From: Neptunicoccus sediminis
GTDB taxonomy: Bacteria > Pseudomonadota > Alphaproteobacteria > Rhodobacterales > Rhodobacteraceae
Reading direction: 5' to 3'
NCBI RefSeq assembly: GCF_001719615.1
Contig: NZ_MDVX01000001.1
Coordinates: 1 to 64,000, forward strand
DNA length: 64,000 nucleotides
The notes below the pieces were generated by a model. The model was given only the letters and a program-made list of their open reading frames with translations. It was not told where the DNA came from and did not search any database. Positions 12,706 to 55,859 of the stretch are shown here, piece after piece. Position 1 is the first letter of the stretch. Every line of letters begins with the position of its first letter. Both the position numbers and the translations under genes were made by a program.

Positions 12706-12723
12706 ATCAAAATGGTGAGACTC

Positions 12724-15229: not shown

Positions 15230-16438
15230 ATGACTCTGAAAGCCAAAGACGCCCCCGATTTGAACCGTTTTAACTGGGAAGACCCCTTCGCGCTGGAAAC
15301 CCAGCTTAACGAAGAGGAACGCATGTTGCGCGACGCGGCCAAAGCCTATGCGCAGGACAAATTGCAACCCCGCGTGATCGAGGCGTATCGCGAAGAGAAA
15401 ACCGACCCCGAAATCTTTCGCGAAATGGGCGAAATGGGCCTGTTGGGTGTGACCATACCGGAAGAATACGGCGGGCTGGGCGCGTCTTATGTGGCCTATG
15501 GTCTGGTGGCACGGGAAGTGGAGCGGGTGGATTCCGGCTATCGTTCGATGATGTCGGTGCAAAGCTCTCTCGTGATGTATCCGATTTATGCTTACGGCTC
15601 TGAAGAACAGCGCAAAAAGTACCTGCCAAAACTCGCCAGCGGAGAGTGGATCGGATGTTTCGGCCTGACCGAACCCGATGTTGGCAGTGACCCGTCGGGT
15701 ATGAAAACTGTGGCGAAGAAAACTGCCGATGGCTACCGTATCTCCGGTGCCAAAATGTGGATTTCAAACAGCCCGATTGCGGATGTATTTGTGGTCTGGG
15801 CCAAATCCGAAGCCCACGACGGCAAGATTCGCGGCTTTGTTCTGGAAAAAGGCATGAAGGGTCTGTCTGCTCCGAAGATTGCGGGCAAACTTTCCCTGCG
15901 GGCCAGCATCACCGGCGAAATTGTGATGGATGGCGTTGAAGTTTCAGAAGATGCGTTGCTGCCGAATGTGGAAGGTTTGAAAGGCCCGTTCGGCTGTTTG
16001 AACCGCGCCCGTTATGGCATTAGCTGGGGCGTGCTTGGCGCAGCGGAATTCTGCATGGAAGCCGCCCGCCAGTATGGTCTGGACCGCCAGCAGTTTGGCA
16101 AACCTCTCGCGCAGACACAGCTGCATCAGTTGAAACTGGCCAATATGTTGACAGACATCAGCCTTGGCCTGCAAGCCAGCCTGCGTGTAGGCCGATTACT
16201 GGACGCAGCAGAGGCCGCGCCCGAGATGATCTCGGTTATCAAACGCAACAACTGTGGTAAGGCGCTGGAAATCGCACGGATCGCACGGGATATGCATGGC
16301 GGCAACGGCATTTCGGAAGAGTTCCAGATCATGCGCCACATGGTGAACCTTGAGACTGTGAACACCTATGAAGGCACCCATGACGTGCACGCCCTGATCC
16401 TTGGACGGGCTATCACCGGCCTGCAAGCCTTTTACTAA
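15230..16438 (+). CDS. gcdH: Glutaryl-CoA dehydrogenase
   Basis: This 402-residue flavin acyl-CoA dehydrogenase oxidises and decarboxylates glutaryl-CoA to crotonyl-CoA, passing electrons to ETF. It has the acyl-CoA dehydrogenase segments [13 protein letters not shown] (about 144-156) and [10 protein letters not shown], and the catalytic glutamate lies in [16 protein letters not shown] near the C-terminus, the form typical of GCDH. The chain is strongly like the family along its whole length. It ends in a terminator. Glutaryl-CoA can come from lysine, cadaverine or 5-aminovalerate, which fits the polyamine island next door. Confidence 0.92.
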
Positions 16439-16450
16439 TCCTTAAAATGC

Positions 16451-16486
16451 GCGCCCCTGAAACGGGGGCGCCCTTTGCCTTTTTTG
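16451..16486 (+). terminator. Rho-independent terminator of gcdH
   Basis: GCGCCCC (16451-16457), a 6-base loop and GGGGCGC (16465-16471) are followed by a T-rich tract ending TTTTTT at 16480-16485. Confidence 0.8.
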
Positions 16487-16499
16487 AATGGAATGTTTC

Positions 16500-17612
16500 A
16501 TGTCAAACAATGGTCTGATCCTCACCATCAATCCGGGCACCACAACCACGCGGCTTGGCCTGTTTCGTCCCAATGGCGCAGAAGTCACCCCCGTGCAGGA
16601 TACAACGATCGAGCACGACGAGACCCGCATGGCAGGGTTTGCGACAATTTCCGACCAGCGGGATTTTCGCGCAGCAGAAATTGCCAAGTTTCTGGCAGCA
16701 CAACCCGCTGACACGCGACTGGCAGCGGTCGCAGGACGGGGCGGCATGCTTAGCCCGGTTCCCGCAGGTGTAATTGCAGTGAATGAAGATCTGGTTAATT
16801 TCGCACTGCACAGTCCACGATATAATCATGCGTCCAACCTCGGGGCGCCTTTGGCCAAATCTATTGCAGACCGGCACGGCGTTGACGCCTTTATCGTTGA
16901 TCCGGTTTCGGTCGATGAACTGCCGCAGGTGGCCCGTCTGTCCGGATTTCCCGAAATTCCACGGTTCTCCTTTGTGCATGCGCTGAACATTCGCGCCTGC
17001 GGTCGCAGGTTTGCGGCTGAAATCGGGAAGCCGTTTGACCACCTTAACGCGGTGGTGGCCCATATGGGCGCGGGCATTTCAATTGCAGCCCTTAAAAAAG
17101 GGCGCATTGTAGAGAGCACGAACCGGATGGAGAACGCGCCGTTTTCACCGGAACGGGCCGGCGGGTTGCCGGTGATGCCTTTAATAGACCTGTGTTATTC
17201 GGGGAAATATACCGAAGCCGAACTGAAGCGAAAACTCTACGGCAACGGCGGTGTGTTTGCCTATCTTGGCACCAAGGACATACGGCAGGTTGAGGCGCGG
17301 ATCGCGAAGGGCGACAGTCAAGCGGCCCTTGTGCTGGATGCGATGATCTACCAGATCACCAAGGCAATCGGCGCTATGGCCGCTGTGGTGGATTTTGCGC
17401 CGGACGGAATATTGCTGACCGGCGGCATGGCCCATTCCGAGCGGATTGTTAAGACACTGCAAGCAAGCTGCGGCTCCCTTGCCCCGATCCGCGTTTACGC
17501 AGGCAGCCATGAAAGCGAGGCGCTCGCGCAGGGGGCAGCACGGGTGTTGGCCGGTGTGGAAACTCCGATGAATTGGCCGGTGGAACCCGTAAGAGAAGGG
17601 ATCGCAGTATGA
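16500..17612 (+). CDS. buk: Butyrate kinase
   Basis: This 370-residue ASKHA-fold kinase of the acetate/butyrate kinase family interconverts butyryl phosphate and butyrate with ADP/ATP. It has the N-terminal phosphate loop INPGTTTTRLG (about 10-20), HMGAGIS and LLTGGMAHSE. The ATG at 16500 is chosen because it gives the usual start just before the first strand; an ATG four codons upstream is possible. It overlaps the next gene by ATGA. A buk/ptb pair lets a cell make or use butyryl-CoA; crotonyl-CoA from gcdH is two steps away, so the neighbourhood may not be chance. Confidence 0.87.
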   Translation: MSNNGLILTINPGTTTTRLGLFRPNGAEVTPVQDTTIEHDETRMAGFATISDQRDFRAAEIAKFLAAQPADTRLAAVAGRGGMLSPVPAGVIAVNEDLVNFALHSPRYNHASNLGAPLAKSIADRHGVDAFIVDPVSVDELPQVARLSGFPEIPRFSFVHALNIRACGRRFAAEIGKPFDHLNAVVAHMGAGISIAALKKGRIVESTNRMENAPFSPERAGGLPVMPLIDLCYSGKYTEAELKRKLYGNGGVFAYLGTKDIRQVEARIAKGDSQAALVLDAMIYQITKAIGAMAAVVDFAPDGILLTGGMAHSERIVKTLQASCGSLAPIRVYAGSHESEALAQGAARVLAGVETPMNWPVEPVREGIAV

Positions 17613-18526
17613 TCCGCAGCTTTGACGCACTAGAGTCCGAAATGTCCCGACGACCGCCTTTGCGGGTTGTTGTTGCAGGGGCGGATGATGATCTGGTTTT
17701 GCAGGCTCTGGAAACCGCGGCGGCACGCGGCCAGATCCGTTCGGCAACACTGATCGGTTCAGCTGCGGAAATCCGGCGGCTTTTGCCGTCTGCTTTGGAC
17801 CCGTTTGCGCAGATTGTGGATGCGCCGGACCCCGAAGTTTGCGCCGTCAAAGCGGTGGCTGCCATTCGCGAGAGAGCGGGGGATGTGCTGGTGAAAGGCA
17901 CCCTGAACAGTGCTGCCTATCTGCGGGCTGTGGTGGATAAATCCTGCGGACTGCGGCGTGCGCCGGTTCTGTCGAATCTGACGCTGGCCGAGATGCCCTC
18001 GCTCGACCGGCTGATCGGTGCGACGGACAACGGCATCATTCCTGCCCCCACGCTGGAGCAGAAACGGGCAATTCTGGAAAATGCCAATGGCCTGTTCGCA
18101 GGGCTTGGAAACACCTGTCCGCGGGTGGCTGCGATTGCTGCTTCGGAAAAAGTGTCAGAGCGTCAACCGGCCACCACTGATGCTGCGCAACTGGCGGCCG
18201 CATCCCGTCGCGGCGCGTTTGGTGGCATGCAGGTGGATGGACCCTTTGGCTATGACGTAGCCGTGTCGCAGGCCGCTGCGCAGCGCAAGGGACTGGACGG
18301 ATCAGAGGTAGCGGGCAAAGCGGATCTGATCCTGTTTCCGAATATTGAATCCGGCAATGCCACGGTAAAAGCGTGGAAACTGCACGGCGGCGCACGCACC
18401 GCCAGCATCGTTCTGGGCGCTGCTGCGCCGGTTTTGTTGAACTCCCGCTCTGACGGCGCGGATCAACGGCGACTCGGGCTTGTTCTGGCACAGGCGGCAC
18501 TGGCTGGAATGGAGATGCAGTCTTAA
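17609..18526 (+). CDS. ptb: Phosphate butyryltransferase (phosphotransacylase)
   Basis: This 305-residue protein belongs to the phosphate acetyl/butyryltransferase family and would exchange CoA for phosphate on butyryl-CoA. GAFGGMQVDGPFGYDVAV (about 200-217) and ILFPNIESGNATVKAW (about 240-255) are typical family segments. The start ATG overlaps the buk stop (ATGA); longer starts upstream would lie within buk. Acetyl-CoA cannot be excluded as a substrate, but pairing with butyrate kinase favours Ptb. Confidence 0.85.
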   Translation: MIRSFDALESEMSRRPPLRVVVAGADDDLVLQALETAAARGQIRSATLIGSAAEIRRLLPSALDPFAQIVDAPDPEVCAVKAVAAIRERAGDVLVKGTLNSAAYLRAVVDKSCGLRRAPVLSNLTLAEMPSLDRLIGATDNGIIPAPTLEQKRAILENANGLFAGLGNTCPRVAAIAASEKVSERQPATTDAAQLAAASRRGAFGGMQVDGPFGYDVAVSQAAAQRKGLDGSEVAGKADLILFPNIESGNATVKAWKLHGGARTASIVLGAAAPVLLNSRSDGADQRRLGLVLAQAALAGMEMQS

Positions 18527-18626
18527 ATCGCGGCACGGCGCGACCAGTCCGGATTGAACCATATCCCATCCCGCACGTTAGGCCACCGAAGACCGGGAAA
18601 ACCGCAACGCAGGAGAGGATTTTGAA

Positions 18627-42266: not shown

Positions 42267-42827
42267 TCAGCCTGACGAGTGATCCGAATTTGCCAGTTTA
42301 GAGGTAAACCGCGGGCTCATAACCAGCTTTTTCACCAGCAACCGCGCCTCTATTCCGATGTATTCCTGAAACGGCACAAACGGAATGTGGCTTTCGATCA
42401 GAATGGTGCTTTCGCCCACCTGAAGGTTCGGGAATATCTCATGCGGAATATCCTTGTTCCGCGTGAGCGCGGGATAGGTGCCAGTGCCAACGCTCCAGTC
42501 GATTTCAAGCCCGTCTTCCGTGTTGTCGATATTTGAGATCCGCATGTAGGTATCGCTGCTATCCACCCCCATAATGGAGGCAAACAGCGTGTTCATATCC
42601 TTGATGTACTGGTCGTCCACCTCTGTCTGGCGGGACAGAATATCCGCCACCGTGTAGGTGGCCTTCACCGAACGGGTCCAGGTGCTATAGGCATCAAAGA
42701 AGGTGAATGTGCCTGCAAACCAGAAGGCGACCAGCGGCAGGATAAACATAAATTCGACCATTGTCGCACCGGATTCGTCCCGTTTCAGGGCATTCAGGCG
42801 GTTTGTTAACCGTTTCAACAGTCGCAT
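42267..42827 (-). CDS. TadE-like pseudopilin, last gene of the group
   Basis: This 186-residue protein has a short basic N-terminus, then DESGATMVEFMFILPLVAFWFAG (about 18-40), the glutamate-plus-hydrophobic helix of TadE-type pseudopilins processed by a prepilin peptidase. The remainder is a periplasmic/extracellular domain. Its start overlaps the previous gene by TGATG. Its role in a Tad-type pilus is inferred from family only, since no other pilus assembly gene lies here. Confidence 0.8.
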   Translation of the reverse strand: MRLLKRLTNRLNALKRDESGATMVEFMFILPLVAFWFAGTFTFFDAYSTWTRSVKATYTVADILSRQTEVDDQYIKDMNTLFASIMGVDSSDTYMRISNIDNTEDGLEIDWSVGTGTYPALTRNKDIPHEIFPNLQVGESTILIESHIPFVPFQEYIGIEARLLVKKLVMSPRFTSKLANSDHSSG

Positions 42828-43348
42828 CAGTCAGGCTCGTTCACAAAGGCAGTATCCGCAACAAGAGGAATGCCGGTTTCAGAGGTGCCCGGAAACAGGG
42901 CAATGCCGTTGGGCATCAGCGGGTCGATGATAATGCAGGCACGAATATAGACGATCTCGTTGCGCGATCCCGGCGACCATGTGGTCACAGGTGCTATATC
43001 GTTTTCCTTGTCATAGCATTTGTAGTTCTTGGCATAGCCCACGGATGGATTGAAACGGTCCATCTCAAGGAAAAGGGTATCCGAGCAATCGTTAAACACC
43101 AGTGCTTTATCGCAGATTTCCTCCTTGATAAAATCGTGGGTATATAGCGGGCTGGCGAAAAGCCGTAACTCCCGCACCGTAATGTCGAGCGCCCGCTCCA
43201 GCATCATCTGTTTGGTCATGATGAGACCGGTTTCAAACACCCAGAAAAATCCGGTGAGAAACGTCGTCGCCACGATTACAAATTCGGCAGTGGAGGATCC
43301 GCGCTCGTCGTCGCGGAACCCCCTGAGTTTGTTAATGAACTTGAACAT
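42827..43348 (-). CDS. TadE-like pseudopilin
   Basis: This 173-residue protein starts with a basic segment and DERGSSTAEFVIVATTFLTGFFWVF (about 14-38), the same TadE pattern with the conserved glutamate at the fifth position of the processed helix. Four cysteines in the outer part (Cys99, 108, 130, 158 approximately) may form disulfides. It lies 24 bp after the TadG-like gene and is coupled to the following TadE-like gene. Confidence 0.8.
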   Translation of the reverse strand: MFKFINKLRGFRDDERGSSTAEFVIVATTFLTGFFWVFETGLIMTKQMMLERALDITVRELRLFASPLYTHDFIKEEICDKALVFNDCSDTLFLEMDRFNPSVGYAKNYKCYDKENDIAPVTTWSPGSRNEIVYIRACIIIDPLMPNGIALFPGTSETGIPLVADTAFVNEPD

Positions 43349-43372
43349 GACCTGCTCGCTTTATGCTTATGA

Positions 43373-45034
43373 TTATTGTGTCAGTTTCAGTTTCTGGATG
43401 GACGCCGCGATAGAGGCGAACACGGTGGTAATGTCAGTTCCGGCAGCCGGATAGAAATGGCTTTCGGTGCTGGCACAGTCTTTCAGCTTGCCGGACGTGG
43501 TGTCGTTTGTCTCATAGCCGATTGTGTAGACGATGATCCCGGAGTTTTCGGCTGCGGTACAGGCTGATGACATCACCGTATCGGCCTCGCCCATGTTCCG
43601 GCTGGACACATTTACCAGATCGTTCAAAGCGTTTTCCCGTGTAATGTTGTCGTAATAATCAGCCGGCATTTTGCCCCAGGCTTCATCCCACGGAAGTTGC
43701 CGGTAAGAAACCGTACCCAGCGCGGTTTTGATCAGATTGAACGTCGTAGAAGAAATCCAGGAGTCATTCGAAATATCAAACAGGCTGCCGGTGGAGGGCT
43801 TGCGCAGATAGAAGTTTGTCACCTCGACCGGATCGCCATAATAGCAGGTGATCCCGTACTGGCCGCAGTATTTTTCATATTTGCTGCCTGTGTAGGTTCT
43901 GCCGTAATAGGTCAGGTGCGTGAACGCGCCTGGTTCTTCTTCAACCACTTCCCAAAGATCGGAAAGTCCGGTGCGATATTCATCCTTGAAGCGGAACTCA
44001 TACGTATTGGCACCATCGCCCATCAGAATGATCACCTTCAGGGTCTCATGATCGGTGTAATCCGCCGGAATTCCAGCCAGGCCCGGATTGATGTCACCGT
44101 CAGCGATCAGGCCATCGGCAATAGGACGGAAGGAAGGATCAAGAAGGGCAAGGCCCCATTTCATGCCCAGATGTGCCGCAGTCCAGCCGCTGGTGCCAAG
44201 GCTGTCAATCTTTGTGTGCAGATTGGATTCGCTGCTTTCATAGGGCATGATTTCATATTTCGACTCCCCCATGCAGGTTTCATAACTGCTGTTGAAATCC
44301 TGAAAATCACCATACAAAGCGGTAAACACGCCCTGTTTCAGGCTGGAAGTCGGATCAATCGCCACTTCGCTGAAGCTGGCATCGGAGAAATCCAGACAGT
44401 TTGACAAAGTATGCGTTACCGCAACATTCAACCTGCTGAAGATCGAATCCGGCGGCGTCACGTTGTGGTTGAACGGAACGACAGAGATCGAAACAGTGTC
44501 CGGGTCCACACCGGTCAACATGGTCGTCACGAACTCTTTCGCAGCGGTTTTTAGGTTGCGCAGCTTGCTGCCAGCCATAGAGCCGGAAACGTCAAGCACC
44601 AGAGAAATTTCGAGGTTCGGGATCCGTTCGGAAGCTGCACTGCGCGCGGTGATCGGCATTTCTTCGATACCGGCCATAGAAAGAAACCACGTATCCAGAT
44701 TGGCCGTAGCCGTCGCAGAAACTGTCCTTGCGTTGGTGGCGACAATCGAATTCACGTCTACCGTAAAGGCATCAATCGTGACCACTTTGGACATGTAGTC
44801 CTTTACAACCACATCGGGGTCTTGCGTCTGTTTCAGCGAAGCCGCTGCAAGAACCGCACGATCCAGATTGTACTGAATGGACGACCGCAGGTTTTCATGA
44901 CGGGCAAGATCAACGGCCGTACCACCGACCAGGAACATTGCCGAAAATACGACGAGTATGAATACGATGATGGACCCTTTTTCATCATCCTTATACCCGC
45001 GATTAACCAGTTTCTTCTTTAATGACGTCAGCAT
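43373..45034 (-). CDS. TadG-like protein with von Willebrand A domain
   Basis: This 553-residue protein has a pseudopilin-like N-terminus (DEKGSIIVFILVVFSAMFLVGGTAVDLAR, in two parts; about 17-45) and a VWA domain from about residue 140 with the metal-ion motif DVSGS (148-152), interrupted by a long insertion (about 200-480) before the C-terminal VWA part with YTIGYETND. Such TadG-type proteins are thought to help anchor Tad pili. It heads a three-gene group. The long insert with Tyr and Cys is unusual and may define what it binds. Confidence 0.82.
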   Translation of the reverse strand: MLTSLKKKLVNRGYKDDEKGSIIVFILVVFSAMFLVGGTAVDLARHENLRSSIQYNLDRAVLAAASLKQTQDPDVVVKDYMSKVVTIDAFTVDVNSIVATNARTVSATATANLDTWFLSMAGIEEMPITARSAASERIPNLEISLVLDVSGSMAGSKLRNLKTAAKEFVTTMLTGVDPDTVSISVVPFNHNVTPPDSIFSRLNVAVTHTLSNCLDFSDASFSEVAIDPTSSLKQGVFTALYGDFQDFNSSYETCMGESKYEIMPYESSESNLHTKIDSLGTSGWTAAHLGMKWGLALLDPSFRPIADGLIADGDINPGLAGIPADYTDHETLKVIILMGDGANTYEFRFKDEYRTGLSDLWEVVEEEPGAFTHLTYYGRTYTGSKYEKYCGQYGITCYYGDPVEVTNFYLRKPSTGSLFDISNDSWISSTTFNLIKTALGTVSYRQLPWDEAWGKMPADYYDNITRENALNDLVNVSSRNMGEADTVMSSACTAAENSGIIVYTIGYETNDTTSGKLKDCASTESHFYPAAGTDITTVFASIAASIQKLKLTQ

Positions 45035-45610: not shown

Positions 45611-45976
45611 TCAGGCGGCCATAACCTCTGGCAGCGCGACCACGGCGATCATTTCGACGCGCATGCCCGGACGGGCGAGCGATGTGCCGCCGGTGGCCCG
45701 TGCGGGTGGTGCCTTGGCGCAGACCCATTCGTCCCAGACAGCGTTCATGCCCTGAAAGTCGTCCATATTGGCCAGCCAGACCTGTACGGAGGCAATATCG
45801 GCCTTTTGAGCACCCAGATCGGCAACGACCTTATCCAGTTTAGCCAGCACCTGACGGGTCTGCGTGGTGATGTCGGCGGTCAGGTCGTCGGGCACCTGCC
45901 CTGCCAGAAACGCGATGTTTCCGATGGTGACGGCCTGGCTCATACGGGGGCCGGGGTTGAGGCGGGAGAGTGTCAT
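45611..45976 (-). CDS. ridA: RidA-family enamine/imine deaminase
   Basis: This 121-residue protein of the RidA/YjgF family has GNIAFLAGQVPDD (about 18-30) and the C-terminal RPGMRVEMIAVVALPE, with the arginine that binds the carboxylate of reactive enamines. Such proteins hydrolyse 2-aminoacrylate-type imines to ketoacids and ammonia. AAAGGAC sits seven bases before ATG 45976. It is the last gene of the catabolic group, 13 bp after a DUF3726-like gene, which suggests that the pathway has an enamine or imine intermediate. Confidence 0.85.
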   Translation of the reverse strand: MTLSRLNPGPRMSQAVTIGNIAFLAGQVPDDLTADITTQTRQVLAKLDKVVADLGAQKADIASVQVWLANMDDFQGMNAVWDEWVCAKAPPARATGGTSLARPGMRVEMIAVVALPEVMAA

Positions 45977-45989
45977 GACAGGTCCTTTG

Positions 45990-46715
45990 TTAATCATTGT
46001 CACTGAGGTTTGATCCAGCACCAGCGCGAGAGGCTTCTGTGGCAGGCACAGTGGTGCGCATGGCAAATTTGTTCAGCACTGCAACGGTTGCAGCAGTGGT
46101 CTGGGCGTTGGGACTTGTGGTCGGGCAAGGCTGGTGGCAGGGGGCTTTCTCTACGCCCAGTGTCAGCGAAAGCTGCGACACACTTAAGGCGTCTGCCGCC
46201 GCATCGAGCCATTTCTCGGCCCCGTCGATACGCAATTGGCCGCCGTCCCAACACAGCACAAACGACAGATCGTTCCTGCGCCCGAGTTCCGACAAAAACG
46301 GCACCAGCAGGATCGGAGCGTTTACCGGCCCAAGGGAAAGTGCGGATTCGGGAGCCGGTCCTTCGGGCAGGTCCGCGTAATCGCAAAGTGTGGCGCCAAG
46401 GATGATCGGACAGGCCGCCTGCCCTTTCGCGTTCTGCCACGCGCCCGGTGTCACAGCAGGGCACAGATCCTCCCAGTCCAACCCCTCGGCCTGTTCCAGA
46501 TGACTGCGCAATTGGGTCGGGCCGTCGATGCCGTGGGACACCAGCCAAGCAGCGGCAAACCCCGCTTCTTCGGCCATGCCCCAGCTCATACCGACACCGC
46601 GGGCCGCTTTGGTACAAAGCGCTGCCGCTTCGTTGCAGGACAAAGGCGCGTGTTCGTTTCCTGCAAACTGCGGGGCGGTTTCGCCTCGGGTCTGGTCGTG
46701 GGGATCGGCGCTCAT
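45990..46715 (-). CDS. DUF3726-like protein of unknown function
   Basis: This 241-residue protein has LSCNEAAALCTKAARGVGMSWGMAEEAGFAA in two parts (about 25-55), which looks like the conserved N-terminus of the DUF3726 family. The rest has no motif that I recognise. No signal peptide or membrane segment is seen. Its start overlaps the stop of the 558-residue protein upstream (ATGA), so the two are made together and may form a complex. Function is unknown. Confidence 0.7.
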   Translation of the reverse strand: MSADPHDQTRGETAPQFAGNEHAPLSCNEAAALCTKAARGVGMSWGMAEEAGFAAAWLVSHGIDGPTQLRSHLEQAEGLDWEDLCPAVTPGAWQNAKGQAACPIILGATLCDYADLPEGPAPESALSLGPVNAPILLVPFLSELGRRNDLSFVLCWDGGQLRIDGAEKWLDAAADALSVSQLSLTLGVEKAPCHQPCPTTSPNAQTTAATVAVLNKFAMRTTVPATEASRAGAGSNLSDND

Positions 46716-48388
46716 ACGTTGGCCTCCTGCTTGATTTCGTCAGGGAAAGGGGCGCCGGCAAACAGGTTGATCCGCACCCATCTGTCAGAGCGGGGATCGA
46801 ACTGGCTTGCACCGAAAAACGCCAGCTTGCAGCGCAACAGGTCAATTGGCAGCATATCCGCCGCAATCAGATTGTCCCGCACTTCGGCATAGGGGTGGGA
46901 TTGCGCGATCTGGGCCCGCCGGACGGCGTAGCGGTGCTCGGGGTGGGACAGCAGAAGTGCTGCCACCGGCTGACTGGCATCGTAATCTTTAACAGTGTCG
47001 TAAAGCTCTGAGATCAGACGGGCGATACACAGGGGTTGTTCCAGCGTAGCGCCTTCTTCAGTGGCGCGCTCTCCCAAGCGGGGTTCGAGTTTTTCTTCGG
47101 AAACATACCAGAACCGCGCCACATTTTCAGGGGTGCTAAAGTCTATATCAAGCGCCCAGCGGTAGTCCGTTTCCAGACATTGACGCAGCGCGGCCACTGT
47201 CATGGCCCCGTTGATATGAAAGCTCGCCGCCTCATCCGCGCCCATGTGATCGGCCAGTTCATCCACCAGCGCGCCGTGGGGTTCCAGCATCAAGGACAAC
47301 AATGTCTCTTGCCCTTCAAGGCTGAGCGTCGCAGCCCCCCAAGACCACAGCGCATCCCAAGGGTGGTCTGTTGTCCAGTCCCAAGAGCCAAGCGAGTCCT
47401 CGATCAGCGAAAGATCGCGGCGCAGCTCTGCCAGTTTGGCAGTCTGGACCGGATGTTCGGAATGCCAGATCTGGGCGTTTTCCTTGGCGAGGTGCAGCAC
47501 ACGGGTCAGGTCTGACACCGCTTGCGCGCGGGCGGCGGGTTGCGCCCGCACCCGTGCCAGCGCTTCTTCGCGGGCCATGATCCAGTTGTTCAGCAGAACA
47601 GGGTGGCGCACAATAAACGGCGCCATGCCCAGTCCGGTGGAATTGCCGACGCCAAGACTGCGGCGGGTGGCGCGGTCCAGTGTTACCGCCTGTGTACCGC
47701 CACGCGCCGCAGCGATATGTTCGACGATATCCACTGTAAAGGCGCGGATCAGCCAGACGGTCAGCATTTCCACCTGAAAGGGCGCGGCCAGTTCGGGACG
47801 CTCTGCGATATAGATCCGGTCTGATGCGCCGAATTTGCCAGAGCCATAGACCGCTGTGGTGCGCATCAGATAGCCCACCGCGCGGATTTCTTCCGCGTCG
47901 GGTTGGCGTCCTTGTGAAAGCGCCTCAACCACATGGTTGAACAGGCGCACGGAACGGTTGGCACGGGCCAGCGTCAGTTCTTTGGATGTGACGCGACCGG
48001 CCTCCTGATAGGGGACGTTTTGCGCCAGCCTTTGGATGTCCGCGTCTGTCGGGTCGCCGTCAAACAAGGTAAAGGTCGCATCCCAAGCGGTGGCGATCAC
48101 CCTGTCGGAACGCATTTCGGGCGGCAGGTCATGGGCGAAGGCAACAAGGCTATAGGTGCGTCCGGCACTTTTCACGCGGTACACCCCGTGGCCGACGCCT
48201 CTGGCATCCACCTTCCAGACCGGACGGTCAATGTCCCAATCCGCCCCCCGCAAGCGGCGCAACATCACGCGCAGGAACGACAAGCGTGTGGGATGACCGC
48301 ATCCCATACGGGCCAGTCGCATCACCTCGGCTGCGGGACGCCTGTAGCGGGCTACGTCCTGCGTGGTGATCGAAGGTGTGACAGACAT
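46712..48388 (-). CDS. Unrecognised 558-residue protein in the BCCT/RidA gene group
   Basis: I do not recognise a family. The protein is soluble, mostly helical in appearance, without signal peptide. It has a Trp-rich middle (SWDWTTDHPWDALWSWG, about 350-366), several His/Asp/Glu clusters and GVGNSTGLGMAPF (about 255-267), a glycine-rich loop that could bind a nucleotide or cofactor. It lies 66 bp after the BCCT transporter and is coupled to a DUF3726-like gene. With RidA, a dipeptidase homologue and an aldehyde dehydrogenase in the same group, it is a good candidate for the first or ring-opening enzyme of a pathway. Confidence 0.62.
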   Translation of the reverse strand: MSVTPSITTQDVARYRRPAAEVMRLARMGCGHPTRLSFLRVMLRRLRGADWDIDRPVWKVDARGVGHGVYRVKSAGRTYSLVAFAHDLPPEMRSDRVIATAWDATFTLFDGDPTDADIQRLAQNVPYQEAGRVTSKELTLARANRSVRLFNHVVEALSQGRQPDAEEIRAVGYLMRTTAVYGSGKFGASDRIYIAERPELAAPFQVEMLTVWLIRAFTVDIVEHIAAARGGTQAVTLDRATRRSLGVGNSTGLGMAPFIVRHPVLLNNWIMAREEALARVRAQPAARAQAVSDLTRVLHLAKENAQIWHSEHPVQTAKLAELRRDLSLIEDSLGSWDWTTDHPWDALWSWGAATLSLEGQETLLSLMLEPHGALVDELADHMGADEAASFHINGAMTVAALRQCLETDYRWALDIDFSTPENVARFWYVSEEKLEPRLGERATEEGATLEQPLCIARLISELYDTVKDYDASQPVAALLLSHPEHRYAVRRAQIAQSHPYAEVRDNLIAADMLPIDLLRCKLAFFGASQFDPRSDRWVRINLFAGAPFPDEIKQEANV

Positions 48389-48454
48389 CGCGGTTCCCCC
48401 CAGAGACCTAAATTCGGTGAAGGTATGGCGCCCTCCGGCGCCATACCGTTTGCA

Positions 48455-50020
48455 TCAGACCGGTGCAGTCGTGGCCGTTGGCTTGCGCCCCAGCATCCAT
48501 GTAATCCGCAGGGCGTCCCACAGGGAAGGTAACAGCAGAAGCGACACAGGCACAGCCGTCACAACGATGAAGCTTTGCAGCTTGCCGATGCCCCCGGCGC
48601 CGGTAGAGATCAGGATCAGAGCCATCACACCCATCGCCAGCCCCCAGAAGGCGCGCATGGCGCTGGAAGGTTCGCCGTCGGACATGGTGGTCGAGATCAC
48701 ATAGCTCATGGAGTCGCTGGTGGTGGCGACAAAACACATGGTCAGCACCAGAAACAGCACCGACAGAATCATCCCCATAGGCATCGCCTGAGTAATCGCC
48801 AGCAGACCCGCAGGCAGGTTAAAGCCTTCAAACGGGCCGGAGATCACGCCGGGTTCCGCGATTTCAAAGAAGATGCCCGAACCGCCGATGATCGTGAACC
48901 AGAAGTTGGTGATCAGCGGTGCCATCACAGACAGGGTCAGAATGATCTGACGGATAGAGCGACCACGGCTGATACGGGCGATAAAGATCGCCATCAGCGG
49001 ACCATAGCCCATGAACCAGCCCCAGAAGAACACAGTCCACCAGCCCAGCCAGCCTGCATCCCCGAACAGAGCCGCGTCACCGCGATAAAGGGTCAGATCA
49101 AAGAAATGGGTCAGATAGACCTGCATACCGCCAAAGAAGCCGGCGAAAATTTCTGTGGTGGGACCGGCAATCAGCATGAAAACCAGAAGGATCACAGCAA
49201 GCACAACATTGATCTGCGACAGGAGTTTGATGCCTTTGGCAAGGCCGGTGATCGCAGACACGGTGTAGATCGCAACCAGTGACAGAATGGCAATGGACTG
49301 GGTAGTGAAATTATCCGGAATGCCAGTCAACTCGTTCAGACCATAGGACAGTTGCAGCCCCAGAAAGCCGATTGGCCCGACCGTGCCCGCCACAACCGCA
49401 ATCACGCAGGACGCATCTGCAATCAGGCCAATCGGCCCGTGCAAGGCACGCTCTTTGAACACCGGATAAAGCAGGGTGCGTGGTGCCAGCGGCAGACCTT
49501 TGTCATAGTGGTAATGCATTAGCATCACAGTGGTCAGCGACCCGAGGATCGCCCAAGCCAGAAAGCCCCAGTGCAGGAAACTCTGGGCCAGTGCAGCATT
49601 GGCCTGTGCTTCGACGTCCCCGCTCAGATCGCCAAACAGGGGCGGTGTGGACAGGAAATGGGCGATAGGTTCGCCTGCGGCCCAAAACACACCGCCACCG
49701 GCAAGCAGGGTACACATGATCATGGAGCCCCAGCTGAAGCTGCTGAACTCTGGCAGGGCAAGACCGCCCATGACCGTTTTGGACCCCGGCAGCACGCAAA
49801 GGACCAGACCGATCAGAAAGGTCGCCAGCAAAAGGATTTGCCAGTAAAGGCCGAAATACTTGGCCGAGAAGGCAAAGGCGCTGTCCACCAGTGCGGACAA
49901 TCCTTCGATATTAAAGAAAGCATAGGCGCAAAACAGCGCGATGAACCCTCCGGTGATGGCGAAAAGCGCCTTGTCTATCCGGCCGGTTGGCTGGCCTGTT
50001 GTTCTACTCGTATCGCTCAT
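48455..50020 (-). CDS. BCCT-family transporter with altered signature
   Basis: This 521-residue transporter has twelve hydrophobic segments and BCCT hallmarks such as GGGVFWAAGEPIAHFLSTPP (about 97-116) and FIARISRGRSIR (about 331-342). The signature in TM8, normally rich in Trp for gripping a quaternary ammonium group, reads WWTVFFWGWFMGYGP: a Gly-Tyr-Gly takes the place of the usual Trp-Ser-Pro part. The substrate may thus be a betaine-like or other zwitterion. GGAGGACTAAG precedes ATG 50020. It opens the group with the unknown 558-residue protein and follows the M19 gene by 54 bp. Confidence 0.82.
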   Translation of the reverse strand: MSDTSRTTGQPTGRIDKALFAITGGFIALFCAYAFFNIEGLSALVDSAFAFSAKYFGLYWQILLLATFLIGLVLCVLPGSKTVMGGLALPEFSSFSWGSMIMCTLLAGGGVFWAAGEPIAHFLSTPPLFGDLSGDVEAQANAALAQSFLHWGFLAWAILGSLTTVMLMHYHYDKGLPLAPRTLLYPVFKERALHGPIGLIADASCVIAVVAGTVGPIGFLGLQLSYGLNELTGIPDNFTTQSIAILSLVAIYTVSAITGLAKGIKLLSQINVVLAVILLVFMLIAGPTTEIFAGFFGGMQVYLTHFFDLTLYRGDAALFGDAGWLGWWTVFFWGWFMGYGPLMAIFIARISRGRSIRQIILTLSVMAPLITNFWFTIIGGSGIFFEIAEPGVISGPFEGFNLPAGLLAITQAMPMGMILSVLFLVLTMCFVATTSDSMSYVISTTMSDGEPSSAMRAFWGLAMGVMALILISTGAGGIGKLQSFIVVTAVPVSLLLLPSLWDALRITWMLGRKPTATTAPV

Positions 50021-50074
50021 CTTAGTCCTCCACAAAGCGATTGCACATGGCCTGCTGGCCGCGAAAAAATAGTC

Positions 50075-51061
50075 TTAAGGGACGGATTGCGCCCCGAAGC
50101 TCTGTTCAAAAAATTTCAACCAGTTGTCGCCCATCACGCCGTCGGTCGTGGTCTCATCCAGTCCTGCGGCCCGCAAACCGGCGCGGATTCCCGCCAGATC
50201 GCGGTTGTCATGGAACCAGTCAGGCATGGGCGGGAAACCGGCATTGTCGGCACTGCCTTCGCCATAGTCGATGACCTTGGTCCAGCGCCCGACCCGCATC
50301 CATTCAACGATACTGTCAGGCTGGTCCTGACACAGATCCGTGCCAATCCCGACCTGCCCTGCGCCCACCAGATCAACCGCCAGCGCTGCCATATCGCACC
50401 ATGACTGGAGCGTGCATTGGCTGGCGTCTTTCAGGTGATGGGGATAGATCGACAGCCCCAGAAACCCGCCGCTTTTGCCCAGCGCGCGCAGCAGATCATC
50501 GGATTTGTTGCGCAGGGCGGCGTGCCAGCTGGATGGATTGGCATGGCTGATGGTGATGGGACGGGTGGAATGCTCAATCGCCTCAAAGGTAGAACGCTCA
50601 CCCGAGTGGCTCATGTCCACTACCAGACCGACGCGGTTCATTTCGGCCACCACCTGACGGCCCATGCGGGTCAGTCCGGTGTCATCATCCTCGTAACAGC
50701 CTGACGCCAGCAGCGACTGGTTGTTATACGTCAGTTGCATAAACCGCAGACCGAGCGTGTGCAGCACCTCAACCAGCCCGATGTCATCTTCGATACAGGA
50801 CGGGTTTTGCGACCCGAAAAAGATCGCTGTGCGGCCGGTTTCACGGGCGCGGCGTACATCGTCAGCGGTGCGGCCCTGAAAGATCAGGTCGGGGAATTGT
50901 TCAAACCAGCGGTTCCATTGCTCGATCACCAGAACCGTTTCGCGAAAGGTCTCGTGGTAAGTGATGGTGACGTGGACAGCGTCCACGCCCCCCGCACGCA
51001 TCTCGCGAAAGATTTTCTCAGACCAATTGGCGTATTGCAAACCGTCGATCAGATAGCTCAT
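50075..51061 (-). CDS. M19 (membrane dipeptidase) homologue with lost metal ligands
   Basis: This 328-residue protein has the M19 amidohydrolase-like barrel, with LTYNNQSLLASG, DMSHSGERST, ISHANPSSW and GIGTDL in family order. However, the N-terminal metal motif DGHND reads DGLQY (residues 6-10) and the bridging glutamate region reads FGSQNPS. The two later histidines and an aspartate remain. It is thus unlikely to be a normal two-zinc dipeptidase and resembles M19-like proteins found beside dimethylglycine/betaine genes in pseudomonads. It overlaps the aldehyde dehydrogenase gene by ATGA. Confidence 0.78.
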   Translation of the reverse strand: MSYLIDGLQYANWSEKIFREMRAGGVDAVHVTITYHETFRETVLVIEQWNRWFEQFPDLIFQGRTADDVRRARETGRTAIFFGSQNPSCIEDDIGLVEVLHTLGLRFMQLTYNNQSLLASGCYEDDDTGLTRMGRQVVAEMNRVGLVVDMSHSGERSTFEAIEHSTRPITISHANPSSWHAALRNKSDDLLRALGKSGGFLGLSIYPHHLKDASQCTLQSWCDMAALAVDLVGAGQVGIGTDLCQDQPDSIVEWMRVGRWTKVIDYGEGSADNAGFPPMPDWFHDNRDLAGIRAGLRAAGLDETTTDGVMGDNWLKFFEQSFGAQSVP

Positions 51062-52509
51062 GCCGGTTCACCCGCCGAAACGTAAGCGGTTTTGACCGTC
51101 GTGTAGAACTCGGCCGCATAAGTGCCCTGTTCGCGCGGTCCAAAGCTCGACGCGCCACGACCGCCGAAGGGCACGTGATAGTCGGTGCCCGCTGTTGGCA
51201 GATTCACCATCACGGTTCCCGCCCGCATGTTCGCGCGGAAATGGCTGGCACGGGCCAGTGAGGTCGTCATGATACCGGCGGTCAGACCGAACTGGCTGTC
51301 ATTGGCAACCGACAGCGCCTCTTCGTAGCTGTCCACCTTTTGCACGGCGGTGATCGGCCCGAACATCTCTTCGCGGTTGATCCGCATATCGTTGCGCGTG
51401 TTCACAAAAACCGCAGGCGCCTGATAGAAACCTTCGGTCGCCATTTCCAGACGCTCTCCACCACAGAGCAGCTCTGCCCCTTCGCTCTTGCCGGTTTCGA
51501 TATAGTCGAGGTTCTGGCGCAACTGGCTTTCGCTGACGACAGGGCCGATTTGCGTGCCTTCTTCTAGCGCGTGACCGACCTTGAGCGCCTTGGCAGCGGC
51601 GACCAGTTTCTCAACAAAGGCATCGTGCAGGCTGCTGTGTACGATCAGTCGGCTGGCCGCGGTGCATTTCTGCCCTGTCCCGCCAAAGGCCGAACCCGCA
51701 GCATGGGCCACGGCAAGATCAAGCTCCGCATCATCCATCACGATCAACGGATTCTTCGATCCCATTTCCATCTGCACCTTGGTCATGTTCTGCACGGCAG
51801 CAGCGGCAATGCCACGGCCTACAGGAACCGAGCCGGTGAAGCTGATCGCATCCACCTGCCCGCCTTCGACCAGACGCTGGCCCACATCACGGCCCGGTCC
51901 GGCCACAAGGTTGAACAGGCCCTTTGGAATGTCCTGACGGGCGATGATTTCTGTCAGGGCAATGGCACTGGCCGGTGTCACATTGGCCGGTTTCCACACA
52001 ATCGCGTTGCCAAAGGCCAGCGCAGGGGCGATTTTCCAGGACGGCGTGGCCACAGGAAAGTTCCAGGGCGAAATGATCGCCACCACGCCCACCGCTTCGC
52101 GGCGCACGTCAATTTCAATCCCCGGACGTACACTTTCGGCTAGATCACCGTGCTGACGCAGGCATTCGGCGGCGTAATAGGTAAAGAACTGTCCGGCGCG
52201 GTAAACCTCGCCCTTGCCCTCGGCCAGCGGTTTGCCTTCTTCGCGGGACAGCATACGGCCGATTTCTTCGGCGCGGGCCATCAGTTCGGTACCGATAGCC
52301 ATCAGCACATCGTGACGCTTCTGGATACCCGCAGCCCACCATGCCGGCTGGGCACGACGGGCCGCAGCAAGCGCTGTGTCCAACTGTCCGGCATCCGCCT
52401 GTGCATACATGCCGATCAAATCGGATGTGTCAGAGGGGTTGCGGTTTTCAATCTGGCTGGCCCCGTCGGTCCAGGAACCATCAATGTAAAGTTGCGTGCG
52501 ATCGGTCAT
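51058..52509 (-). CDS. Aldehyde dehydrogenase, 2-oxoglutarate-semialdehyde dehydrogenase-like
   Basis: This 483-residue aldehyde dehydrogenase has ISPWNFPVATPSWK (about 146-159), FTGSVPVG, the catalytic Glu248 in EMGSKNPL and Cys282 in GQKCTA. The E-M-G-x-K-N-P form of the glutamate motif is typical of the branch with 2-oxoglutarate semialdehyde dehydrogenases. An end product of glutarate or 2-oxoglutarate type would fit a pathway for a five-carbon amine or pyridine-derived compound, but the substrate is not proven. It is the first gene of the leftward group and faces a LysR gene. Confidence 0.8.
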   Translation of the reverse strand: MTDRTQLYIDGSWTDGASQIENRNPSDTSDLIGMYAQADAGQLDTALAAARRAQPAWWAAGIQKRHDVLMAIGTELMARAEEIGRMLSREEGKPLAEGKGEVYRAGQFFTYYAAECLRQHGDLAESVRPGIEIDVRREAVGVVAIISPWNFPVATPSWKIAPALAFGNAIVWKPANVTPASAIALTEIIARQDIPKGLFNLVAGPGRDVGQRLVEGGQVDAISFTGSVPVGRGIAAAAVQNMTKVQMEMGSKNPLIVMDDAELDLAVAHAAGSAFGGTGQKCTAASRLIVHSSLHDAFVEKLVAAAKALKVGHALEEGTQIGPVVSESQLRQNLDYIETGKSEGAELLCGGERLEMATEGFYQAPAVFVNTRNDMRINREEMFGPITAVQKVDSYEEALSVANDSQFGLTAGIMTTSLARASHFRANMRAGTVMVNLPTAGTDYHVPFGGRGASSFGPREQGTYAAEFYTTVKTAYVSAGEPA

Positions 52510-52599
52510 GACACTCTCCTATTTGGTTGGCTTTGGTCTAGACCCTCGGAGAGATTTCAGTCACTATGAATTTATTGAAGGTTCTTTCAGGAAAATTGA

Positions 52600-53469
52600 A
52601 TGTCAGTAAAGCTTGAGATGCTCCGCACCTTTGCAACGGTCGCAGCTCAAGGCACGTTATCCGGTGCCGCAGCGGTTTTGGGGCGCACGCCCTCTGCCAT
52701 TTCCATGATGCTGGCCCAGTTTGAACAAGAGGTCGGCGCCCCCCTGTTTGAAACCGACCGCAAGAGCCGTCTGTCCCCCCTTGGCCAACTGGTGCTTGAG
52801 GAAGCCCAACGCGCCACCGAAGCCTTTGACAACAGCGTCGATGCGATCCGCCGCCACGCCCTGTCCACGGCAGGTATCGTGCGCATCGCGGCCGTGCCCT
52901 CTGCGACTGTGGCGCTGCTGCCCGATGTGATCGACGCCTTTCGCAAGGCCCGTCCGGAGGTGCGCATCGAAATCAGCGACGTGGACAGTGCGGCGGTGCG
53001 CGCCCGCCTGCATCGGGACGAGGCCGACATCGGTATTGTCTCGGCAAGGCCCGGCGACCCGCTAGAGGGCGTGCGCATCCTGTCTGATGACCTTGGAATT
53101 GTCTGTGCCGAGGGCGGTGCCATCCATCAGGCCCATCTTGCCACCAAAGGCGCGTCGGACTGGAGCCTGTTGCGCCTGGAGCCGCTGATCTCTAACCCGC
53201 TGTGTGATCTGGTAGAGGATGCAACCGTCGATGCCCTGCGGGTGGCCAGTGTACTGGAGGCCCGCAATACCACCGCCATCCTGTCCTTCGTGCGGCGCGG
53301 TTTCGGGGCCAGCATCCTGCCGTTTGATGCCGTGCGCAACCAGCCCGATGGGGTTGAGTTCTTTGTACCGGCCCATACGCTCAGCCGGCGGGAATTGCGA
53401 AAGATCAAGCAGGAGCAGGACAGTCTGCGCGGCCCCGCGCTGGATTTCTGGGAACTTCTCAACCCGTGA
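52600..53469 (+). CDS. LysR-family regulator of the BCCT/M19 gene group
   Basis: This 289-residue regulator has a LysR winged helix (about 3-60, with LSGAAAVLGRTPSAISMML) and an effector domain from about 88. It is divergent from the aldehyde dehydrogenase at 52509, with 90 bp between, the normal arrangement for control of the leftward operon. The recognition helix has RTPSAIS in place of the common TQPAVS. Inducer unknown. Confidence 0.87.
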   Translation: MSVKLEMLRTFATVAAQGTLSGAAAVLGRTPSAISMMLAQFEQEVGAPLFETDRKSRLSPLGQLVLEEAQRATEAFDNSVDAIRRHALSTAGIVRIAAVPSATVALLPDVIDAFRKARPEVRIEISDVDSAAVRARLHRDEADIGIVSARPGDPLEGVRILSDDLGIVCAEGGAIHQAHLATKGASDWSLLRLEPLISNPLCDLVEDATVDALRVASVLEARNTTAILSFVRRGFGASILPFDAVRNQPDGVEFFVPAHTLSRRELRKIKQEQDSLRGPALDFWELLNP

Positions 53470-53709: not shown

Positions 53710-54516
53710 ATGTCCAAAGTTGAGCGTTGCGCTGTCAGAGTATCCGGCTCTGGCGAAACTGCCATTGTGTTCCTTCACGGCTACGGCTGTGACAGCGGCA
53801 TGTGGAGCAAAGTCGCGCCTGATTTTGAATCCCGCTTCAAAGTTATCACCTACGACCTGATGGGCTATGGCCAGTCCGCCATCGAGCACTATGACCGCGC
53901 CCGCTATGCCACGCTTGACGGTCATGCCGAGGATCTGATCGACATCCTCGACGAACTCGACCTTAGCGATGTGATTGCGGTGGGCCATTCTGTCAGCGCC
54001 ATGACCATTGCTTTGGCGTCAAACCTGCGCCCCGATTTGATCGCGAAGAACGTTATGATCTGTCCCTCGCCAAGTTATATGAACGACGACAATTATATAG
54101 GCGGATTTGAGGAACGGGACCTGTTGGGTCTACTCGACATTCTGGACGTTAACTATCTTGGATGGGCCAGTGATATGGCCCCTGCAATTATGGGAAGACC
54201 CGAGCGCCCGGAGCTTGGTGAAAAACTGACCGAAAGTTTTTGTCAGACCGATCCCGATATTGCCAAACACTTTGCCCGCGTGACCTTTCTAAACGACCAC
54301 CGGGAAGACGTGAAAAACATTGCGCAACCCACACTTGTGTTGCAGTGCCGCGACGACATTCTTGTGCCCGACACGGTGCGCGCATGGCTGAATGACAACC
54401 TGCAACAGGGCGAACAGGTCCTGCTGGATGCGACAGGCCACTGCCCGCACATGAGTTTTCCGGAGCAAACCTCCAATGCAATTCTGGCCTATTTGCAACC
54501 GACTGTCGCACGATGA
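53710..54516 (+). CDS. RsbQ/KAI2-type alpha/beta hydrolase
   Basis: This 268-residue alpha/beta hydrolase has a complete triad in RsbQ/KAI2/D14 positions: Ser94 in VGHSVSA, Asp216 in CRDDILVP and His247 in GHCPHMS, with a lid region around 125-190. In Bacillus RsbQ is needed by the PAS-domain phosphatase RsbP for energy-stress signalling, and plant KAI2/D14 are hormone receptors of the same fold. Here the next gene, overlapped by ATGA, is a PAS-domain kinase, so the hydrolase probably makes or binds its signal. GGGAGAGGGAT precedes the start. The 240-bp gap upstream has no gene. Confidence 0.85.
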   Translation: MSKVERCAVRVSGSGETAIVFLHGYGCDSGMWSKVAPDFESRFKVITYDLMGYGQSAIEHYDRARYATLDGHAEDLIDILDELDLSDVIAVGHSVSAMTIALASNLRPDLIAKNVMICPSPSYMNDDNYIGGFEERDLLGLLDILDVNYLGWASDMAPAIMGRPERPELGEKLTESFCQTDPDIAKHFARVTFLNDHREDVKNIAQPTLVLQCRDDILVPDTVRAWLNDNLQQGEQVLLDATGHCPHMSFPEQTSNAILAYLQPTVAR

Positions 54517-55859
54517 ACAAAAACATCCAGCCTCTCTCTGATCTGGACCTCTGGCCCGGTGGCTTGCTGGTGATGGACGGTGACGGGATGATCATCAAAA
54601 CCAACGCGACCCTGCGGACGTGGCTGGGGCAGGACAGCGCGGCGCAGGTCAGCGGGGCCCGCTTTGTGGATATACTGACACGGGCGAGCCGGATCTTCTT
54701 TGAAACCCACCTCCGTCCGATCCTGATCGTCGAAGGGGCATTCTCGGAAGTGTCCCTTGAACTGGAGCGACCCGATGGCAGCCGGTTTGGCGTTTACGTC
54801 AACGCCGAGCGGCCTAACGGACAGCTCGGCGTGGCCTATTTTTGCCTCTATAGAAACGAACAGCGCCAGTCCTTTGAACGCGAACTGGTAGAACGGCGCA
54901 GGGAAAGCGACGAATTTCGTATATTGGTGGACTCTTCCCCCCATGCCATCGTCTCGTCGGATAGATTCTTCCGGATACACGCGTGGAACCCGGCTGCAGA
55001 ACAACTATTTGGCTATTCAAAGGAAGAAGTGCTTGGCCAGCGGTTCGACCTGCTGCTGATACCAGAAGACGAACTGGATGAACTGCACAAAAGGGTTGCC
55101 GACGTCATCGCAGGAGAGGTCCTGCGCAGTGAAACCCTCAGACTGCACAGATCCGGACAGAAAATTCATGTAGAACGAAGCTTTGCGGCCATACGGGACG
55201 AGAACCAGACCCACGCGGGATTTGTCACCATGTACAGCGACATTTCCGAACGCAAGAAAGCCGAAACGAAAATTGAAACCCTTCTTCACGAGATCAATCA
55301 CCGCTCTAAAAACCTGCTTTCCATCGTAGAGGTGATCGCCCGCCAGACCGCGCGGTCTCACGCAGGGGATGAATTTCTTCCGGTCTTCTCTAACCGGCTG
55401 CGCAGTCTGGCATCCAATCAGGATATTCTGCTCCGCAGCGGTAGCACCCATGTGGATCTTGAAGAACTGGCGCGGGCCCAGTTCACCCACCTTGAGGATG
55501 TTCTGGACACTCGGGCAAAGCTCTCCGGTCCGCCGGTGCATCTGAATGAATCCGTGTCACAGGCGATAGGGATGGCAATTTTTGAACTGGTGACAAATAC
55601 TGCGAAATATGGCGCCCTCTCACAAGAGAACGGCGGGGTGAAGCTGACATGGGAGATCACCACTGGTGAAAACCCTGATCTGAAGATGTACTGGCTTGAA
55701 ACCAACGGCCCCCCTGTCACCGCCCCCACCCGAACAGGGTTCGGTTCGCAGGTGACGGGACTTCTGCTCGAAAGCACCACGTCGGGCGAAACCCGTCACG
55801 ACTTTGCCACAGACGGTCTGCGCTGGAGCTTTACCGCGCCGGTGGAAAACCTGACATAG
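54513..55859 (+). CDS. PAS-PAS sensor histidine kinase of the HWE/HisKA_2 type
   Basis: This 448-residue kinase has two PAS domains (about 12-115 and 130-245; the second with AWNPAAEQLFGYSKEEVLGQ) and an HWE/HisKA_2-type kinase part. The phospho-acceptor is His263 in INHRSKNLL. The N-box reads FELVTNTAKYGAL: the histidine that gives HWE kinases their name is Phe. The W-x-E part is present as WLETNGPP. No membrane segment is seen, so it senses inside the cell. It is coupled to the RsbQ-like hydrolase. HWE kinases often feed the PhyR general stress response of alphaproteobacteria, but no PhyR, NepR or sigma gene lies here. Confidence 0.85.
   Translation: MNKNIQPLSDLDLWPGGLLVMDGDGMIIKTNATLRTWLGQDSAAQVSGARFVDILTRASRIFFETHLRPILIVEGAFSEVSLELERPDGSRFGVYVNAERPNGQLGVAYFCLYRNEQRQSFERELVERRRESDEFRILVDSSPHAIVSSDRFFRIHAWNPAAEQLFGYSKEEVLGQRFDLLLIPEDELDELHKRVADVIAGEVLRSETLRLHRSGQKIHVERSFAAIRDENQTHAGFVTMYSDISERKKAETKIETLLHEINHRSKNLLSIVEVIARQTARSHAGDEFLPVFSNRLRSLASNQDILLRSGSTHVDLEELARAQFTHLEDVLDTRAKLSGPPVHLNESVSQAIGMAIFELVTNTAKYGALSQENGGVKLTWEITTGENPDLKMYWLETNGPPVTAPTRTGFGSQVTGLLLESTTSGETRHDFATDGLRWSFTAPVENLT

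Follow-up and report, generated by a model that had tools for sequence, protein, structure and literature searches.

A Rhodobacteraceae operon built around a 558-residue protein of no described family, most likely for the catabolism of homarine

Trigonelline is degraded by a pathway to which TgnC and TgnD belong besides TgnA and TgnB, and for homarine (N-methylpicolinate) a catabolic operon with genes reportedly named homABCDER is said to have been described by Ferrer-Gonzalez et al. (2026, Nat Microbiol 11:1531; cited in PMC13390433), whose abstract is said to place homarine genes in Rhodobacterales, SAR116 and SAR11. The part of PMC8269262 available to us states that no homarine degradation pathway had been characterised at that time, that R. 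pomeroyi DSS-3 grew more poorly on homarine than on trigonelline, and that TgnA/TgnB are unlikely to open homarine. Another ring-opening enzyme would then be needed for this compound. A further related system is a glycine betaine cluster of Vibrio natriegens, where, according to the accessible part of PMC12093977, dgcAB follows pepD, predicted to encode a dipeptidase, and a hypothetical gene; these two stand in the same place in Pseudomonas aeruginosa. Here we analyse the locus at positions 45611-53469 of a stretch of 64,000 nucleotides from Neptunicoccus sediminis (assembly GCF_001719615.1, contig NZ_MDVX01000001.1, positions 1 to 64,000 of the forward strand); this whole stretch is called the window below. 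The locus is an operon with a divergent regulator, and one of its products, hereafter U558, is a protein of 558 residues outside described families. We consider it likely that the operon allows its host to import and degrade a zwitterionic N-methylated compound, homarine being the best candidate. It would most likely be a member of the homarine operon kind already in print. The parts that may be new are the fold of U558, the probable kinship of the DUF3726 protein with the Ldh_2 family, fusions of U558 with DUF3726, an altered site in the M19 homologue and a suggestive alternation between RidA and Ldh_2 genes.

Gene content and conserved neighbourhood

Six structural genes follow one another on the minus strand. 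They encode an aldehyde dehydrogenase (ALDH, 51058-52509; PF00171, 527 bits), an atypical M19-fold protein of the amidohydrolase superfamily (50075-51061; PF01244, 238 bits), a BCCT transporter (48455-50020; PF02028, 480 bits against a cut-off of 27), U558 (46712-48388), a DUF3726 protein (45990-46715; PF12525, 90 bits) and a RidA-family protein (45611-45976; PF01042, 84.7 bits). A LysR-family regulator (52600-53469, plus strand; Pfam HTH_1 and LysR_substrate) is divergent from ALDH. The positions in this gene list, which had first been given in a sequence-only reading of the same DNA, were confirmed, and so, by Pfam, were the families named. That reading had also noted two ATGA junctions and an EMGxKNP motif in ALDH; the junctions are 4-base overlaps between ALDH and M19 (51058-51061) and between U558 and DUF3726 (46712-46715), and the motif reads EMGSKNP. 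The longest open reading frames (ORFs) of BCCT and RidA extend to TTG codons at 50035 and 46066; the starts are probably the ATG at 50020 behind GGAGG and the ATG at 45976 behind AAAGGA, and with the latter start RidA does not overlap DUF3726.

Of 385 alphaproteobacterial genomes, 53 encode U558, and they represent 42 of the 277 genera sampled. A wider search of 398 genomes from the phylum found it in 29, nine of these lying outside Alphaproteobacteria, and 5 of 185 genomes from the class of genome G442 have it, G442 included. Small genomes of 1.3-1.6 Mb (G030, G161, G259 and G297) also encode it. Neighbourhoods were compared in 100 loci, namely 20 plus the best 80 of at least 581 matches, all chosen for holding U558, with near relatives over-represented and without a random-gene baseline. 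Many of the best 80 are from Rhodobacteraceae, and others carry the labels SAR116, Hyphomicrobiales, Leucothrix, Granulosicoccus, Chromatiales, Rhodoferax and Deltaproteobacteria (labels of metagenome-assembled genomes as recorded). Seventy-nine loci are well flanked, their sequence reaching 5.5 kb or more upstream of U558 and 2.5 kb or more beyond it downstream, and neighbours were counted within 7 kb. An M19 gene is present in 75 of these 79, a separate DUF3726 gene in 73, ALDH of the window's subfamily (at least 600 bits) in 57 and LysR on either strand in 54, followed by Ldh_2 (28), BCCT of the window's kind (21), RidA (20), a second kind of BCCT (11) and SoxA (3). Over all 100 loci the M19 homologue occurs in 92 and DUF3726, by profile, in 97, the exceptions being the distant L049-L051. 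This linkage is far from chance.

The gene order proposed for checking in the sequence-only reading is indeed kept in many genomes, also outside the class. Four regions fetched from nine genomes outside it (L226-L229) all hold ALDH, M19, BCCT, U558, a RidA-like gene and LysR, together with a match to the DUF3726 profile that is weak in L226 (E 0.0019, E being the expectation value) and L229 (3.4e-5). Two Ruegeria loci (L118 and L123) hold LysR plus five structural genes in the order ALDH-M19-U558-DUF3726-Ldh_2, and two SAR116-labelled records (L096 and L107) hold ALDH-M19-U558-DUF3726.

M19-U558-DUF3726 is the minimal set, and in 10 of the 79 well-flanked loci it is unaccompanied by any other gene kind that was looked for. 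These ten loci would suit a different view, in which the three genes assist the breakdown of N-methyl amino acids in general, acting for example on a formaldehyde or formyl adduct and being tied to no single substrate, and ALDH, BCCT and LysR mark the substrates of particular hosts. The pepD-hypothetical-dgcAB clusters, in which a dipeptidase-like gene likewise stands beside N-demethylation genes, point the same way; the window operon differs from them in having neither dgcAB nor electron-transfer flavoprotein genes. Since one ALDH subfamily and LysR recur with the three genes in the proportions given above, we hold such a general role to be quite improbable.

A distant branch of U558 (L050, 29% identity, and L231) lies beside an IclR regulator, recognised by Pfam in L231 and by eye in L050, and an M19 homologue; the place of DUF3726 is taken by a protein of 240-254 residues matching no Pfam family, ABC transporter genes were seen by eye in both loci, and L231 has RidA. 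Just upstream of the module, L109 (8977-10005, by Pfam) and L112 (7935-8972, by eye) carry a gene of the histone-deacetylase family. In the window, tad-type genes recognised by eye (a 553-residue protein and two TadE-like proteins; 42267-45034, minus strand) are directly downstream of the operon. A genome of the same genus (G565, locus L225, 6023-13602) carries an Ldh_2-M19-U558-DUF3726 version just before three tad-type genes, which share 25, 39 and 32-37% identity with those behind the window's RidA. With the window's proteins, its M19 protein shares 75% identity and its U558 57%; the U558 of L052 reaches 79%. The two sites appear alike on one flank and different on the other, and it is unsure whether they are orthologous places because the identity of the tad-type genes is low.

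Proposed route and the candidate ring-opening proteins

The operon would probably be induced by its substrate, with LysR acting through the divergent promoter, and BCCT would import the compound. U558 and DUF3726, working as one unit, would be the first to attack the N-methylpyridinium ring and would open it, ALDH would oxidise the semialdehyde released by ring opening, and the M19-fold enzyme would cleave the remaining N-formyl (or other N-acyl) bond. On chemical reasoning, one ring carbon must be lost on the way from homarine (seven carbons with the methyl) to N-methylglutamate (six), and a sequence of ring cleavage, aldehyde oxidation and deformylation would remove it. Such a sequence would suit ALDH, the amidohydrolase-fold protein and RidA or Ldh_2. 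None of the operon's seven proteins falls into a known oxygenase family in Pfam or NCBIfam, the TgnA/TgnB-type flavin oxygenase included, and it is by this exclusion that the first chemical step is assigned to U558 and DUF3726. The operon would share with the trigonelline pathway the logic of opening an N-methylpyridinium carboxylate ring followed by an aldehyde dehydrogenase and a hydrolase (for TgnA/TgnB, the accessible part of PMC8269262), with U558 and DUF3726 in place of a TgnA/TgnB-type oxygenase.

The sequence-only reading had put forward homarine on the strength of a matching count of five structural genes plus a regulator. Homarine is still the best-fitting candidate, and the count is that of the two Ruegeria loci; the window has six structural genes. 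With five structural genes and LysR, the Ruegeria loci would resemble the reported homABCDER; the other features compared, a predicted end near glutamate and hosts among Rhodobacterales and SAR116, would fit it as well. The window operon departs from this layout: it lacks Ldh_2 and has BCCT and RidA.

In Pfam, U558 stays below every cut-off (the best score is that of Spectrin_4, with 14.3 bits against the 24.2 needed), and searches of Pfam, NCBIfam, PHROGs and the PDB sequences, by sequence and profile, gave nothing that passed a cut-off or had an E below 0.05. The earlier statement that it belongs to no known family has therefore held, with no homology to a housekeeping family detected in these four collections. 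When 18 divergent members were compared with Pfam, Spectrin_4 (E 0.0031) and Gag_p30 (E 0.0092) each gave one weak match, and both were taken as chance. The AlphaFold2 model of U558, built from 74 rows, is confident (mean predicted local distance difference test, pLDDT, 89.7; predicted template modelling score, pTM, 0.91). Foldseek matched it to no PDB chain at E 0.001 (best E 0.51, template modelling score, TM, 0.11) and to nothing in BFVD (best E 0.7), PDB and BFVD being the whole scope of the fold search. Across 24 divergent rows 36 residues are invariant, including ten Arg, one Asp (D103), one His (H262), N144, S146, Q162, Y173, N249, S430 and two Trp-free Gly-rich stretches (182-187 and 246-254), with no Cys or Glu. 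The many invariant Arg would suit an anionic ligand. In four of the 100 loci (L061, L064, L127 and L082) U558 and DUF3726 are fused, DUF3726 being joined to the end of U558; the first three form one clade.

The model of the DUF3726 protein is likewise confident (pLDDT 89.5, pTM 0.84), and its best 25 Foldseek chains, several of them chains of one protein, are all Ldh_2-type dehydrogenases: ureidoglycolate (4fjs), type-2 malate/lactate, YiaK and sulfolactate dehydrogenases and delta1-piperideine-2-carboxylate reductase (1wtj). The best match has E 2.7e-3, probability 1.00 and TM 0.42 over 147 columns, and none reaches E 0.001. When the two families were aligned with hhalign, their first helices fell into register over 44 columns with a probability of 32% (P 4.8e-4), compared with 0.8% or less when the columns were shuffled (20 times), 1.1% when the alignment was reversed and 0.2% when U558 was used. 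DUF3726 is thus probably a shrunken fold distantly related to that of the Ldh_2 reductases, as judged from these chains and from an hhalign probability above the controls. The differences are considerable: DUF3726 has about 200 residues against 330-350 in the Ldh_2 family, TM stays at the value given, and PF02615 (Ldh_2) does not match, PF12525 being the sole Pfam match at E 1. In the literature searched, no paper on DUF3726 or on PA5396/PA5397 was found, and no trigonelline pathway paper was among the matches listed.

Canonical M19 enzymes bind their metals through an HxD motif, a bridging Glu and two His. We surveyed these positions in an alignment of 93 rows, one from the window and the others from 92 loci; a single row is gapped there, leaving 92 rows with letters. 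At the HxD place no row has His or Asp (Leu in 90 and Tyr in 89 of the 92), and the bridging Glu is Gln in all 92; H152, H173 and D242 are invariant. The Gln for Glu and both His are also seen in the alignment with dipeptidase 3id7, which starts behind the HxD place. With three zinc ligands replaced, a plain dipeptidase role is unlikely, and a remodelled site in an amidohydrolase fold is likelier. The closest solved chain, 2i5g ('amidohydrolase', E 1.1e-59), which we take to be the P. aeruginosa protein of the dgc cluster, carries the same replacements in the alignment, a point in favour of the accessory role considered above.

The best-scoring family for ALDH is NF042993 of NCBIfam (2-oxoglutarate semialdehyde dehydrogenase), at 499.6 bits against a cut-off of 770; the link to this semialdehyde made in the sequence-only reading stands as the nearest family and falls short of membership. 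The closest solved chains to BCCT are a trimethylamine transporter, choline transporters, DddT and BetP, a point in favour of the reading proposed here, and its TIGR00842 score is below the cut-off (306.9 against 407.55 bits). The 90 bases between LysR and ALDH (52510-52599, assigned to neither strand) are a probable LysR operator. Stretches of the form TTCA...TGAA occur at 52586-52600, the last base being the A of the LysR start codon, and at 52556-52579. In an alignment with eight related loci, TTCA...TGAA elements are kept in all nine, as a LysR operator would lead one to expect; 24 columns do not vary, and many of these fall within TTCA, CTGA and TGACTGAA (no shuffle baseline).

RidA, Ldh_2 and a possible link to N-methylglutamate

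The RidA-family protein scores below the TIGR00004 cut-off (55.9 against 106.25 bits). The Ldh_2 protein encoded beside U558 at other loci has delta1-piperideine-2-carboxylate reductase as its closest solved relative (E 2.2e-56), an enzyme of cyclic 2-imino acids, and enzymes of this type also make N-methyl amino acids. In the window type of operon, RidA would hydrolyse N-methyl-iminoglutarate to 2-oxoglutarate and methylamine. In the Ruegeria type, the Ldh_2/DpkA-like enzyme would reduce the same compound to N-methylglutamate, which N-methylglutamate dehydrogenase (Mgd) would convert to glutamate. With thresholds of 60 bits for RidA and 150 bits for Ldh_2, the 79 well-flanked loci divide into none with both, 20 with RidA only, 28 with Ldh_2 only and 31 with neither (Fisher p 3.2e-5); both occur together in 2 of the 100 loci overall (L062 and L068). 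The RidA-like proteins of L226-L229, at 20-22 bits against that of the window, fall below the threshold. This alternation is suggestive only; RidA and Ldh_2 may have alternative jobs on one imine.

Sox-type operons, which we take to be the family to which Mgd belongs, adjoin the module in L113 (Shimia), L100, L175 and L190. SoxA matches at 1e-150 occur in at least 142 of the 385 genomes, and the presence of SoxA alone is too common to help. We read 20 regions, about 8 kb on each side, around operons of the SoxA clade nearest to those adjoining U558. Type III glutamine synthetase over its cut-off, presumably of the gmaS type, was found in 11 of the 20 genomes queried. It lies 9.7 kb from SoxA in G229, 12.2 kb in G252, 16.9 kb in G364, 17.0 kb in G075 and 22.8 kb in G207; in G213 the two are 1.6 Mb apart, and in the remainder of the 11 they are on separate contigs. 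Beside it stand glutamate-synthase, GXGXG and amidotransferase genes, i.e. genes of the mgs type. By Pfam the gmaS/mgs set comprises four proteins each in L246 and L247 and two genes in L250; an mgs-type gene is also present in L185, and a short amidotransferase ORF in L177. Genome G207, of 1.2 Mb (L048, L250 and L251), has gmaS/mgs-type genes, a Sox-type operon and M19-U558-DUF3726 in a stretch of about 36 kb, SoxA being 6.6 kb from U558. Such gmaS-type neighbours lean towards Mgd as the identity of these Sox-type operons and are mild evidence for the route proposed.

By eye, a purU-like gene was seen in L176 and MttB-like genes in L183 and L184. In L246 (G252, 5062-18592) the gmaS/mgs-type genes are followed by genes that look, by eye, Amt-like, GcvT-like, reductase-like and Rieske-like, then by a regulator and the Sox-type operon; this is perhaps a larger methylated-amine island.

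Mgd takes part in homarine catabolism according to the accessible part of PMC13390433, in line with an end near glutamate. The earlier proposal of a complete route ending near glutamate or 2-oxoglutarate is partly supported: its end agrees with that statement; its completeness stays unproven, the operon holding no protein of a known oxygenase family.

Weighing the substrate

Several observations weigh against homarine breakdown as set out above. No classical metal site is evident among the invariant residues of U558 and no cofactor site was found; with one His, one Asp and neither Cys nor Glu, an oxygenase role gains no support from a metal site. The replaced zinc ligands weaken a hydrolase role for the M19 homologue. 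The RidA/Ldh_2 alternation does not reach significance when tested on a tree that joins the window to 97 loci (seven independent pairs, on average 0 same and 3.6 opposite, median p 0.125), and the sole Ldh_2 match in the window's genome is 42% identical and encoded elsewhere than in the operon. The Sox-type operons could encode sarcosine oxidase instead of Mgd, and the same applies to the single SoxA-type gene that passes the family cut-off in the window's genome. Nine of the 20 genomes have no type III glutamine synthetase over its cut-off, including G331 and G065, whose Sox-type operon adjoins U558. The window's genome has none either, so a methylamine product would have no familiar assimilation route there.

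Genes for the breakdown of other betaines also lie near some loci, and they could mean that the same kind of operon acts on another N-methyl substrate: proline betaine, hydroxyproline betaine, N-methylpipecolate, trigonelline or carnitine. U558 and DUF3726 would then act on the cyclic N-methyl compound, leaving a semialdehyde close to 2-oxoglutarate for ALDH to finish, in keeping with its closeness to the 2-oxoglutarate-semialdehyde families, below their cut-offs as it is. The neighbours in question are MttB-like methyltransferases (L061, L232 and, by clustering kin, L064), old yellow enzyme (OYE)-type oxidoreductases (L061, L064 and L127), a Rieske protein distantly like GbcA in L044 (102 of 670 bits), a proline racemase-family gene in L122 and Sox-type operons in L044 and L113. 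None of them recurs in the core, SoxA being within 7 kb in just the three well-flanked loci counted above (hydroxyproline-pathway genes were not systematically searched). We regard a substrate of this group as rather unlikely and continue to favour homarine.

Beyond the LysR gene, the window holds at 53710-55859 (plus strand) an alpha/beta hydrolase gene (268 residues) in 4-base overlap with a gene for a PAS-PAS-HWE histidine kinase (448 residues). The hydrolase presumably resembles RsbQ/KAI2, which would make this a hydrolase-sensor pair coupled to an HWE kinase.

A bolder proposal can be built on the homarine reading. U558 might be the first member of a new class of enzymes, with a fold of its own, that opens the N-methylpyridinium ring together with a degenerate Ldh_2-type subunit (DUF3726) and without a recognisable flavin, iron or Rieske oxygenase, the hosts choosing a RidA or an Ldh_2 finish. 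We consider this possible and rather doubtful. If true, the nitrogen and the methyl group of one marine compound would take different routes in different bacteria. If the operon is a homarine operon, the system itself would be an ordinary one; its genes would mark consumers of homarine, and its first step would belong to an enzyme family that has neither a Pfam model nor a solved relative.

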